A DNA stretch of 64,000 bases. Origin: Saccharopolyspora gloriosae (GTDB taxonomy: Bacteria; Actinomycetota; Actinomycetes; Mycobacteriales; Pseudonocardiaceae). Made by a program: the position numbers and the translations under genes. The stretch is from NCBI RefSeq assembly GCF_014203325.1, contig NZ_JACHIV010000001.1, forward strand, positions 5,085,501-5,149,500, given 5' to 3'. The notes beneath the pieces are model-generated. The model did not search any database and was not told the origin of the DNA. It saw only the letters and a program-made list of their open reading frames with translations. The number at the start of each line of letters is the position of its first letter. Within the stretch, counting starts at the first letter, position 1. Below are positions 47,280 to 64,000 of the stretch, in pieces.

Positions 47280-47475
47280 TGATCCGCCCCTTCAGCACGT
47301 GCCGCGGAACCGGTCCGCGGCCTCGTCAGAACGGCCAGATCATGTCCGGAACCAACCGGACGGAACAGACATGTCGCAAATTGCTCACCACCCGTTCGCC
47401 GAACGGCACTACGAGCGAAAGGCACACGGGACCCGCGCAGCGGAATGCGAGCAGCACCCCCTGATCACCGTCTTG

Positions 47476-47494
47476 TCAGCGGCGAAGCCGCTGA
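47476..47494. repeat. 8-bp GAA-loop hairpin
   Basis: TCAGCGGC and GCCGCTGA flank a GAA loop in a perfect 8-bp stem, 31 bp before the large repeat. Similar GAA-loop hairpins precede the second copy near 63150-63240. Confidence 0.55.
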
Positions 47495-47524
47495 GCAGTG
47501 ACCACCAAAGCAAGAAGACCACCG

Positions 47525-47623
47525 GCGGGTTCTCAGCTGCTTCCTCGCGAGGACAGCTTTTTCCCTCGTGGCGGAGCCACTTGGGAAAAAGATCCCGCAG
47601 CGAGGAAGCAGCTGAGGTTCCGC
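47525..47623. repeat. 99-bp dispersed hairpin repeat, copy 1
   Basis: A long hairpin: outer stem CTCAGCTGCTTCCTCGC (47532-47548) pairs perfectly over 17 bp with 47600-47616. The inner stem CTTTTTCCC (47557-47565) pairs with GGGAAAAAG (47583-47591), and GTGG with CCAC at the tip. Copy 2 at 63257-63355 has the same length and 93 of 99 identical bases. The repeat ends 27 bp beyond the ftsY stop. Confidence 0.88.
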
Positions 47624-47650
47624 TAAGCGACCACCTACGAAGGCCGAAAC

Positions 47651-49144
47651 TCACCCAAGCAACGCATCAACGAAGGCGGCGGGTTCGAAGGGGGCCAGGT
47701 GGTCCGGCCCCTCGCCGAGGCCGACGAGCTTCACCGGCACGCCCAGCTCGCGCTGCACCTGGAAGACGATGCCGCCCTTCGCGGTGCCGTCGAGCTTCGT
47801 CAGCACGATGCCGGTCACGTCCACCACTTCGGAGAACACCCGCGCCTGCACCATGCCGTTCTGGCCGGTGGTGGCGTCGAGCACCAGCAGCACCTCGTCG
47901 ACCTGGGCGCGCTTCTCCACGACGCGCTTGACCTTGCCGAGCTCGTCCATCAGCCCGGACTTGGTGTGCAACCGGCCGGCGGTGTCCACCAGCACGGCGT
48001 CCACGCCGGCGTCGGTGGCGCGGGAGACCGATTCGAACGCGACGCTCGCCGGGTCCTGGCCTTCGTTGCCGCGCACCACTTCGGCACCGACCCGCTCACC
48101 CCAGGTGGCGAGCTGTTCGACGGCGGCGGCGCGGAACGTGTCGGCCGCGCCGAGCAGCACCTTGTGGCCGTCGGCGACGAGCACCCGCGCCAGCTTGCCG
48201 GTGGTGGTGGTCTTGCCGGTGCCGTTGACGCCGACGACCAGCAGCACCGCGGGCTTGCCGCCGTCGGCGGGGTCGCCGTGCGGCAGCGCGCGCACGGAAC
48301 GCGGTGCTTCGGTGCTCAACGCGTCGATGAGCACTTCGCGCAGCAGCGCCCGCGCGTCCTCCGGGGTGCGCACGCCGCGCGAGGCGATCTCGGTGCGCAG
48401 CCGCTCGACGATCTCCGTGGTGGTGGCCGAGCCCAGGTCGGCCATCAGCAGGGTGTCCTCGACCTCTTCCCAGGAGTCCTCGTCCAGGTCGCCCGCGCCC
48501 AGCAGGCCCAGCAGGCCCTGGCCGAACGTGGAGCGGGAGCGGGAGAGCCTGCCGCGCAGCCGTTCCAGCCTGCCCGCGGTCGGCTCGATCTCCTCGATCT
48601 CGGTGGCCGGCTCGGCCGTCGCGGGTTCCGGTTCCGGAGGGGCCGTGGTGCGGTCCTGCTCGGGCACCTCGGCGGGCGGGGCGGTGGTGTCCTCGACCTG
48701 GTCCACCGCCGTCGCGGCGTCGGTCCCGGTCGTGCGGTCCTCGGCGGGCTCGGCCGTGGTCGCCGGGTCCTCGGTGGTCGCGGGCTGCTCGCGGGGAGTG
48801 CCGGTCTCCGCCTCGACCTCGGCTTCGGTGGGCAGCGGCACGTCGACGATGCCGCGCTTGGCGCTGTCCCTCGGTTCGGCGGCGTCGTCACCGACTCCGG
48901 GCTGCCCTTCGGTCTCCGGTCGTTGCTCGACCGGGTGTTCCGGCGGCGCCGTCGCGGTCGCGCCGCTGGAGAAGCTGAAGCCACCGCCCGCCTGGTAGCC
49001 GCCGCCCTGCACCGCCGGGCGCTCGGCCTCCTGCTCGCGCAGGCTGATGCGGCGCCTCCGGGCGAGCACGATGCCGGTGACCACGGCCAGCACCAGCACC
49101 ACGGCGACGACAACGGCGATCAGAATCAGGTTCGAGGTGGACAC
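47651..49144 (-). CDS. ftsY: SRP receptor FtsY
   Basis: Membrane receptor GTPase for SRP. The 497-residue protein has a transmembrane helix at its start (about 5-26), an acidic Glu/Thr/Pro-rich linker of about 160 residues, then N and G domains: VVGVNGTGKTTTTGKLARVL, GAADTFRAAAVEQLATW, VLVDTAGRLHTKSGLM and LTKLDGTAKGGIVFQ. The GTG at 49144 was chosen; an ATG three codons earlier (49153) is possible. Next to smc in M. tuberculosis, but here separated by a 5-kb insertion. Confidence 0.95.
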   Translation of the reverse strand: MSTSNLILIAVVVAVVLVLAVVTGIVLARRRRISLREQEAERPAVQGGGYQAGGGFSFSSGATATAPPEHPVEQRPETEGQPGVGDDAAEPRDSAKRGIVDVPLPTEAEVEAETGTPREQPATTEDPATTAEPAEDRTTGTDAATAVDQVEDTTAPPAEVPEQDRTTAPPEPEPATAEPATEIEEIEPTAGRLERLRGRLSRSRSTFGQGLLGLLGAGDLDEDSWEEVEDTLLMADLGSATTTEIVERLRTEIASRGVRTPEDARALLREVLIDALSTEAPRSVRALPHGDPADGGKPAVLLVVGVNGTGKTTTTGKLARVLVADGHKVLLGAADTFRAAAVEQLATWGERVGAEVVRGNEGQDPASVAFESVSRATDAGVDAVLVDTAGRLHTKSGLMDELGKVKRVVEKRAQVDEVLLVLDATTGQNGMVQARVFSEVVDVTGIVLTKLDGTAKGGIVFQVQRELGVPVKLVGLGEGPDHLAPFEPAAFVDALLG

Positions 49145-49261
49145 GCACCCCATCCTCGCACCCGCTCGGAGCAGCGGCGGAGCAACCCCAAGGTGGGCGA
49201 TTCACCAACAATGGCAGAAACGCGCTTGCATCCCCCAGCCCGGTGCAATACACCACTGTGC

Positions 49262-62958: not shown

Positions 62959-63379
62959 GGGCTGGGGGTCCTCCTCGACGTTTCCCGCGTGCGCGACGGC
63001 GTTCGGCCGACGAGACGCTAGAGGACTGCCGACGCCGTGACCAGCATTGCCACGGAATCGATGCACAGCAACCGATTGCCCGCCCGAAACGCCCGACTGA
63101 TCACCAAAGCCACGGCGAGCAAACCCGCCCGGTGGCCGAAACCCGCGCCTTCGCGGCGAAGCCGTGCCTTGGGCTGCGAAGCAAAGCCTGCATTGCGGCC
63201 GAAGGCCGTGCCTGTATGTGCGAAGCACATAGCCCACGTCACAAAGGTGACAACCCGCGGGTTCTCAGTGGCTTCCTCGCGAGGACGGCTTTTTCCCTCG
63301 TGGCGGAGCCACTTGGGAAAAAGATCCCGCAGCGAGGAAGACACTGAGGTTCCGCCACCCGACCACCAAAGCAAAGAGA
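62959..63379. other. Spacer with GAA-loop hairpins and repeat copy 2
   Basis: This 421-bp gap holds a string of small hairpins with GAA-type loops (for example CTTCGC-GGC-GAAG near 63150 and TATGTGC-GAA-GCACATA near 63215) and the 99-bp hairpin repeat at 63257-63355. It also carries GACCACCAAAGCAA at 63361-63374, a motif that also flanks copy 1 (47500-47513). Minus-strand frames across it are considered spurious. Confidence 0.6.
63257..63355. repeat. 99-bp dispersed hairpin repeat, copy 2
   Basis: Same layout as copy 1: outer stem CTCAGTGGCTTCCTCGC (63264-63280) with 63332-63348, and inner CTTTTTCCC (63289-63297) with GGGAAAAAG (63315-63323). Relative to copy 1, two outer pairs change with compensation (C-G to T-A, T-A to G-C) and one pair becomes G-A. 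It ends 24 bp from the stop of the EspG-like gene. Confidence 0.88.
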
Positions 63380-64000
63380 TCAGTCATCGACGGTATCGTC
63401 GACGAGTTCCCGCACGTAGTCGACGAGGCGGCGGTTGTCGCAGGGGGCGACGGTGCTCCACTGCCTGCCGTCGCCGCTGGCGCGCACGGAGTGCAGGTAG
63501 CGCCCGTCCGGGGTGTCGTGGAAGCCGACGACGCGGTCGGAGCGCAGCGGTTTCGCCGAGCGGGTCGGGGTGTGCTCGACGCCGAACTGCCCGCGCATGC
63601 CCATGCCTTCGGCCATCCGGGACAGCATCTCGGCGTCGTCGGGTTCCACGCCGAGTCCGCGGAGTTCGTCGGCGAACGCGCGCATGTCCTGCCCGGCGCG
63701 CGCGCCGGCGTCCATCAGCACGTCGTGCGGCACGCTCACCGGCCGCCCGCCGCCCGCCGGTCCGTCGCCCGCGACGGAGACGACGGCTTCGGGCAGCGAA
63801 CCGCCCCGCACCGGCGCGAGTTCGACGATGTCACCGTCCACGATGGTCACGAGCCCGGCGTTGCCGTTGGCGGATGCGAGCGCCCGGATGGAGCGGTCCG
63901 GCGCCCAGATCCGCAGGTCGACGGCGAGCTGCGGCCGGTCCAGCAGCACCAGCAGGTCGGCGAAGTCCTCGTCGAGCCGGTCCTTGCCGGGTTCGGCGAG
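63380..64000 (-). CDS. EspG-like ESX secretion-associated protein (5' end outside window)
   Basis: The visible 206 residues show an EspG-type pattern: LVLLDRPQLAVDLRIWAPDR, VTIVDGDIVELAPVRGGSLPEAVV, a helical middle region and RYLHSVRASGDGRQWSTVAPCDNRRLVDYV near the C-terminus. EspG proteins are cytosolic chaperones of type VII (ESX) PE/PPE-like substrates. The match is at family level from remembered motifs. The start lies beyond 64000. Copy 2 of the hairpin repeat is just downstream. Confidence 0.7.
   Translation of the reverse strand, partial: LAEPGKDRLDEDFADLLVLLDRPQLAVDLRIWAPDRSIRALASANGNAGLVTIVDGDIVELAPVRGGSLPEAVVSVAGDGPAGGGRPVSVPHDVLMDAGARAGQDMRAFADELRGLGVEPDDAEMLSRMAEGMGMRGQFGVEHTPTRSAKPLRSDRVVGFHDTPDGRYLHSVRASGDGRQWSTVAPCDNRRLVDYVRELVDDTVDD

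Follow-up and report, generated by a model that had tools for sequence, protein, structure and literature searches.

Palindromic repeats are common in bacteria. ERIC and NEMIS are palindromic intergenic elements of about 100-150 bp, the ends of IS200/IS605 elements carry strand-specific hairpins that act as recognition sites, and d(GCGAAGC) is an unusually stable DNA mini-hairpin. Compensatory changes are called common in REPINs, for which deep sequencing of growing cultures has been used to look for excision or insertion (PMC3116915); G·T pairs are noted in REP families (PMC3733652), and a conserved stem bulge is required for activity in E. coli REPs (PMC8266576). BOX elements are modular and Correia elements are bounded by 26-bp inverted repeats (PMC3049150). 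Here, we analyzed a 99-nt hairpin that occurs twice in a 64,000-nt stretch of the Saccharopolyspora gloriosae genome (the window), and found that it probably belongs to a new family of dispersed, non-coding, strand-specific structured elements that are mobile or recently mobile and work like REPINs. The parts of the two copies are listed below.

47470..47524, + strand: type-A leader of copy 1, a C/A-rich linker preceded by the small hairpin CAGCGGCGAAGCCGCTG (47477-47493); approximate on the left
47525..47623, + strand: copy 1, 99-nt hairpin composed of frame, variable stem and inner hairpin (R1 119.9 bits)
47537..47544, + strand: variable 8-nt left arm of copy 1, CTGCTTCC, with its partner at 47604-47611
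47604..47611, + strand: variable 8-nt right arm of copy 1
47624..47650, + strand: tail of copy 1, reaching the stop codon (47651-47653) of a minus-strand SRP54-type GTPase gene (47651-49153)
63150..63256, + strand: type-B leader of copy 2, a run of small GCGAAGC-type hairpins ending in ..TATGTGCGAAGCACATAGCCCACGTC; left limit approximate
63257..63355, + strand: copy 2, 99-nt hairpin (R1 113.5 bits)
63269..63276, + strand: variable left arm of copy 2, TGGCTTCC
63336..63343, + strand: variable right arm of copy 2, with one G·A mismatch against the left arm
63356..63379, + strand: tail of copy 2, reaching the stop codon (63380-63382) of a minus-strand EspG-family gene (63380 to past the window end)

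Both copies were 99 nt long and lay where the earlier note had placed them, with differences at 6 of the 99 positions (element positions 13, 14, 31, 85, 86 and 87). As that note claimed, two base pairs were altered on both sides (13/87, from C-G to T-A, and 14/86, from T-A to G-C); the change C85A in copy 2, on which it was silent, disrupts pair 15/85 and leaves a G·A mismatch. The predicted fold energies were -70.4 kcal/mol for copy 1 and -63.2 kcal/mol for copy 2 (z -8.4 and -7.6, respectively), and none of 200 shuffles matched the fold stability of either hairpin. A search with the 33-nt core revealed only these two copies within the window, and none of 100 shuffled windows contained a match to the core at up to 3 mismatches. 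The distance from the facing stop codon to the hairpin was 27 bp for copy 1, next to the SRP54-type GTPase gene (minus strand), which we take to be FtsY by name, and 24 bp for copy 2, next to the EspG-family gene.

Analysis of the host genome (6.83 Mb, one contig; hereafter G000) revealed 270 places with the 33-nt core at no more than 3 mismatches, and none with a reversed-pattern control. The earlier note would have abandoned its reading if no further copies existed or if their pairing was lost; we found hundreds more, with pairing kept in most of those examined. The same core was present in four of the six genus genomes, G000 and the other five (G001-G005), at 270, 149, 81 and 23 places, and the remaining two genomes contained copies with a different inner hairpin. 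Its absence, in a shorter core pattern, from all 291 genomes of other genera suggested a genus-restricted family, an idea that was dropped because the frame pattern GGTTCTCAG-N8-TCGCGAGGA (no more than 1 mismatch) occurs in 15 other genera. Of the 297 family genomes sampled, 68 had this frame, and these represented 16 of 46 genera; there was no control match among the matches listed, and the frame reached up to 134 places per genome outside the genus; in genera with one to three frame matches these may be due to chance or represent remnants. The exact frame was found in none of the 391 genomes of other families of the class in a class-wide sample, and no match to the repeat was observed in the plasmids and phages searched. 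The Rfam covariance models gave no match either, at the gathering score on the window or at E values up to 1 on three loci (L003, L004 and L089). Among the matches listed in open-licence papers on repeats of Pseudonocardiaceae, Saccharopolyspora or Amycolatopsis, REP/RAYT systems, double hairpins and structured RNAs, none dealt with this family; this covers open-licence papers only, and its absence in print is thus unproven.

With regard to distribution along the chromosomes, about 115 kb of G000 (C1 3530001-3645944) was free of copies by the tile detector and lay beside dense regions, which could be an island or a cluster. Four copies were crowded into about 2.3 kb of G003 (C1 4816119-4818421), where G000 has none and G005 perhaps one. 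Two copies stood back to back in opposite orientation within 350 bp in G004 (C1 4180266-4180597, L071).

The general architecture of the element could be deduced from alignments. In 61 copies from the host genome, nearly all columns were fixed except element positions 13-20 and 80-87, part of this constancy being due to how the copies were picked, namely by similarity to copy 1 (30 loci) or by an exact 33-nt core (30 loci); in the exact-core subset the 8-bp stem was no criterion. Among 187 distinct genus copies, 94 had a type-A leader with CAGCGGCGAAGCCGCTG, 88 had a type-B leader, the last part of which is a TATGTGCGAAGCACATA-type hairpin that by eye also shows paired variation, and 5 had neither. 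The hairpin foot carries a conserved notch of G·U, U·U and U·G, and is followed by a C/A-rich tail (consensus CACCCGACCACC..); the GC content of the element is about 0.6. Copies from other genera followed the same order: small hairpin, linker ending in CACCGCC, frame, inner hairpin, frame and a tail CACCCGCACCGCCACGCAAA... Short forms of about 100-145 bp were also observed in G000 (C1 1753590-1753735, 1797295-1797425, 5006700-5006825, 5207805-5207910 and 1680465-1680600), in which the leader and the right foot of the hairpin seem to be fused and inverted ends are kept; they are probably either deletion derivatives or the parent family. A minimal copy in G005 (C9 50901; L117 2898-2943) is a 46-bp palindrome from which the entire inner hairpin is missing.

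The earlier note had read the paired changes as a sign that the folded form is maintained. Among 44 distinct rows from the 61 host copies, 99.2% of cells were paired, and double-change cells numbered 123 compared with 34.6 after shuffling. The 187 genus copies and 45 cross-genus copies were taken without any stem filter (the latter from 50 frames, 5 of which were dropped because they had no right frame or contained N). Perfect 8-bp stems were present in 150 of the 187 genus copies (6.6% when arms were shuffled) and comprised 33 different sequences, the other 37 copies having at least one mismatch. An alignment of 55 rows (the 45 copies from eight other genera plus 10 genus copies) had 97.6% of cells paired and 192 double-change cells versus 55.4 in shuffles, a value that none of 500 shuffles reached. 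Sixteen of the 45 cross-genus stems were perfect and 29 had one to four non-Watson-Crick positions; 35 of these 46 non-Watson-Crick cells were G·T. Pairing was kept in most copies examined, with double changes far above shuffled levels, which agrees with a maintained folded form.

The wobble pairs also indicate which strand folds. Since a G·T on one strand is an A·C on the other, the two should be equally frequent if neither strand mattered. In the 8-bp stem of the 45 cross-genus copies, read on the strand given, we counted 35 G·T versus 4 A·C (p 3e-7), or 19 versus 3 after repeated cases of the same genus, position and pair type had been merged. The host genus showed a modest excess (25 versus 11, p 0.03; counted by hand from the 187-copy table), and the + strand was predicted to be more stable in 39 of the 45 cross-genus copies. 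This asymmetry supports a single-strand fold of the + strand, as RNA or DNA, and the combination of covariation beyond controls with strand-specific wobble pairs is what a structured RNA or single-strand DNA element should display. Thus, of the two forms suggested in the earlier note, folded RNA or a DNA cruciform, folding of one strand gains support, whereas a symmetric cruciform as the selected form becomes less likely, because G·T and A·C are so unequal.

Comparison of orthologous copies showed how the stems change. Of 22 orthologous pairs, we compared the 12 in which both hairpins were 99 nt: among 119 differing bases, 100 belonged to paired double changes, 8 were one-sided and 11 were at unpaired positions. 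One pair was in opposite orientation and three had unlike leaders, so up to four of the 12 may reflect independent insertions into a single site instead of changes in place. At locus 1794920, three genomes had leader and tail in common and three different 8-bp stems, each fully paired; one genome's inner stem was altered in two pairs, and one had a C·A mismatch at pair 9/91. G001 and G002, which differ by about 1%, had one locus with a paired change in the inner hairpin, and the new variant occurred once among 19 pattern matches. In addition, identical 99-mers were found behind both type-A and type-B leaders (L001, L002 and L003), one copy had chimeric arms (G003 1170768), and the same stems recurred within single genomes. 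Identical 99-mers behind different leaders and chimeric arms imply exchange between copies; it seems that exchange and in-place paired change both occur. Two loci of G001/G002 (L089 and L100) shared the left flank and had different right flanks, with the breakpoint at the copy, which perhaps reflects recombination between copies; it could also be an assembly effect, as L089 lies at a contig end.

The position of the element relative to genes was examined in tiles covering 840 kb of G000 and 400 kb each of G003 and G005, in which 91 copies were accepted with no more than 2 substitutions in either frame half and up to 4 mismatches in the 8-bp stem; genes were called by a simple codon-score finder that was trained on G000 and applied to all genomes. 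None of the 91 copies overlapped a gene call, and 87 adjoined at least one gene end. Only 4 lay between divergent genes, compared with 154 of 621 gaps of at least 150 bp (p 1e-6). In 68 copies the right end faced a stop codon, at a median distance of 38 bp and in 58 cases at no more than 50 bp; the left-side distances were broad. A similar trend was observed in other genera, where the right end faced a stop codon in 29 of the 39 usable copies (of 45), and at no more than 50 bp in 25 of the 29. The suggestion of a structured 3' end in the earlier note therefore holds for position at gene ends; it is weakened by the finding that the best-folding strand mostly runs antisense to the gene that ends beside it.

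To compare presence and absence between relatives, we used G005, which is the sister of G000 judging from sequence identity, with flanks about 86-98% identical. Of 24 G000 copies mapped in G005 tiles, 8 had a hairpin there and 16 did not according to a first detector, which missed copies with more than 2 substitutions in a frame half and dropped copies without certain motifs. In 9 of these 16 sites, no more than 50 bp remained between the flanks, and at least three sites taken as empty hold remnants (1667373, 1761348 and 3707030). Among 24 loci mapped in G000, G003 and G005 with the same detector, 15 were occupied in a single genome (7 in G000, 5 in G003 and 3 in G005); two genomes shared 5 of the others, and 4 were common to all three. 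A permissive recheck found that 6 of the 15 have a counterpart in another genome, be it a remnant, a short form or an overlooked copy, leaving 9 of 24 one-genome loci (5 in G000, 3 in G003 and 1 in G005). At 3645945, 1773088, G005 227682 and G003 4833475 the case was clean, both relatives having little sequence left there. At locus 3720549, the G003 copy lies somewhere within a 1.6-kb gap and may occupy another site. Window copy 1 was absent from G005, and its G003 counterpart was a type-B copy with another stem in the same orientation. The presence/absence pattern and the intergenic sites are consistent with the non-autonomous mobile element considered in the earlier note, although membership among MITEs in the strict sense fails, as described below.

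A candidate mover was also sought. The eight largest clusters among 779 neighbour proteins of 261 elements, beyond which lay 41 smaller clusters of three or more members, were ordinary families, with no recurrent transposase. PF01797 (RAYT) had no hit in G000, G003, G004 or G005, one in G001 and two in G002, and its absence from the host genome led us to reject a REP moved by RAYT. Locus 3720549 had suggested a MITE with inverted ends; as a general rule this was refuted, since inverted ends of at least 9 bp were at control level in type A (4 of 94; control 4.5%), type B (1 of 88; 1.4%) and cross-genus copies (2 of 45; 1.4%). Isolated TIR-like ends did occur in the G000 tiles (6 TIR1-like and 8 TIR2-like). 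In G003, inspection by eye revealed an IS3-like transposase pair beside or within a type-B leader array (C1 near 4828962-4830722; L217-L227), so the repeats may also be targets of insertion sequences, and two further transposase-like reading frames beside a copy (C1 near 1232072-1234504); the frames near 4828962 and 1232072 look like later insertions.

According to these observations, the + strand folds into the small leader hairpin, the C/A-rich linker and the long hairpin. In the latter, the foot and internal faces are held fixed in sequence, and the 8-bp stem stretch and the inner hairpin are free but paired. From this we propose a way in which the element may work. The fixed parts could form a recognition site on the folded strand for a host or element-borne protein, or for an RNA partner, and the free stem might be a mere spacer. 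Either new copies would be directed to sites just past stop codons, or those elsewhere would be lost. Stem turnover may involve mutation and correction of one arm against the other, in addition to exchange between copies, and it would be for this reason that changes come in pairs. This proposal is strongest in three points, namely a frame found across the family, the asymmetry between the strands and the fixed distance from stop codons; among its weakest is the small number of clean one-genome loci.

Several other explanations deserve attention. It is possible, though less probable, that the repeat is a functional 3'-end element, that is, a terminator or insulator selected at gene ends, which in particular blocks antisense transcription from the far side before it reaches the gene and whose copies owe their spread to their usefulness; Rho could be served by the C/A-rich stretches that flank the hairpin. 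The narrow distance from the facing stop codon, in the host genus as in other genera, the scarcity between divergent genes, and the same placement and orientation at orthologous loci despite different leader types or stems (e.g., 5133028 versus G003 1313746) argue for such a role. However, the tail consensus has no run of T directly after the hairpin foot on the + strand, as an intrinsic terminator would (in type B the minus strand does have a T run, at about 11 nt from the foot), and the hairpin-less G005 sites with gaps of no more than 50 bp suggest that the element is dispensable at such loci. An absence of selection on the fold, with old DNA homogenised by gene conversion and a template switch that copies one arm onto the other to give paired changes, appears unlikely. 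It would account for the identical 99-mers behind both leader types, the chimeric arms, the recurrence of stems within a genome and the double change at about 1% divergence that was seen once among 19 matches, but the wobble asymmetry and a frame common to 16 genera need selection. The rapid turnover of stems may nonetheless be due to template switching or conversion, which as such is part of the preferred reading, a strand-specific structured element.

As for how such an element could move, a strict REPIN/REP family mobilised on single-strand DNA by a distant RAYT or another HUH transposase is quite unlikely. High-copy intergenic hairpins with a conserved stem notch, compensatory changes and G·T pairs are all described for REPs (PMC3116915, PMC3733652 and PMC8266576), but four of the six genus genomes lack PF01797, no GTAG or CGTC was found at the stem foot when the alignments were inspected, and orientation showed no clear bias with replication (57 versus 43, p 0.19, for 100 of the 270 places, among the matches listed). 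It is just as doubtful that the repeat is a MITE moved by a resident insertion sequence via terminal inverted repeats. Some type-A copies have inverted ends (e.g., CCGCCTGTCTTTGATCT / AGATCAAAGACAGGCGG at 3720549) and short forms with such ends exist; however, these ends are at control level overall, and no target duplication was seen in occupied/empty pairs, whose intergenic flanks have diverged. Finally, there is only a slim chance of an RNA-borne, SINE-like element, whose + strand would be transcribed and folded and whose C/A-rich 3' tail would lead it, via a reverse transcriptase acting in trans, to DNA just past the stop codon of a gene in the opposite orientation. Such a route would explain why one strand folds, why the spacing is fixed at the 3' side alone, why the stem is free yet paired, and why neither general terminal repeats nor target duplications are seen.

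A single repeat family here shows at once its host range (16 genera, with up to hundreds of copies per genome), its folding strand, its fixed distance from stop codons, and a stem already altered pair by pair between genomes a few percent apart. Whether hairpins stay paired through selection or through arm-to-arm correction can be tested directly with such a family, and so can the means by which short elements lacking general terminal repeats are moved. The family is also relevant to genome assembly and terminator design in these hosts.

Compared with known systems, the repeat resembles ERIC and Correia (NEMIS) elements in being palindromic, intergenic and about 100-150 bp long, a comparison made by description and, for Correia, from PMC3049150; Correia elements have 26-bp inverted repeats at their ends, whereas the present element has no general inverted ends. 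BOX, RUP and SPRITE of pneumococcus are likewise small, intergenic, enriched between convergent genes and predicted to fold, according to the same report (PMC3049150), which assigns terminal inverted repeats and target duplications to BOX and RUP; the present element is without such general ends and is GC-rich. With IS200/IS605 it shares strand-specific hairpins, but the host genome has no PF01797 transposase. It differs from REPs and REPINs in the lack of a GTAG/CGTC tag and of a PF01797 gene in the host genome, in a much longer composite fold with a leader hairpin and C/A-rich single-strand parts, and in its spread within one actinobacterial family, so the REP-like character named in the earlier note applies to behaviour and not to strict membership. 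On the other hand, it has the high copy number, the intergenic location, the hairpin whose ends are conserved and whose middle varies but stays paired, the compensatory changes and the G·T pairs that are attributed to REPs and REPINs, and thus REPINs appear to be the nearest known kind in behaviour.
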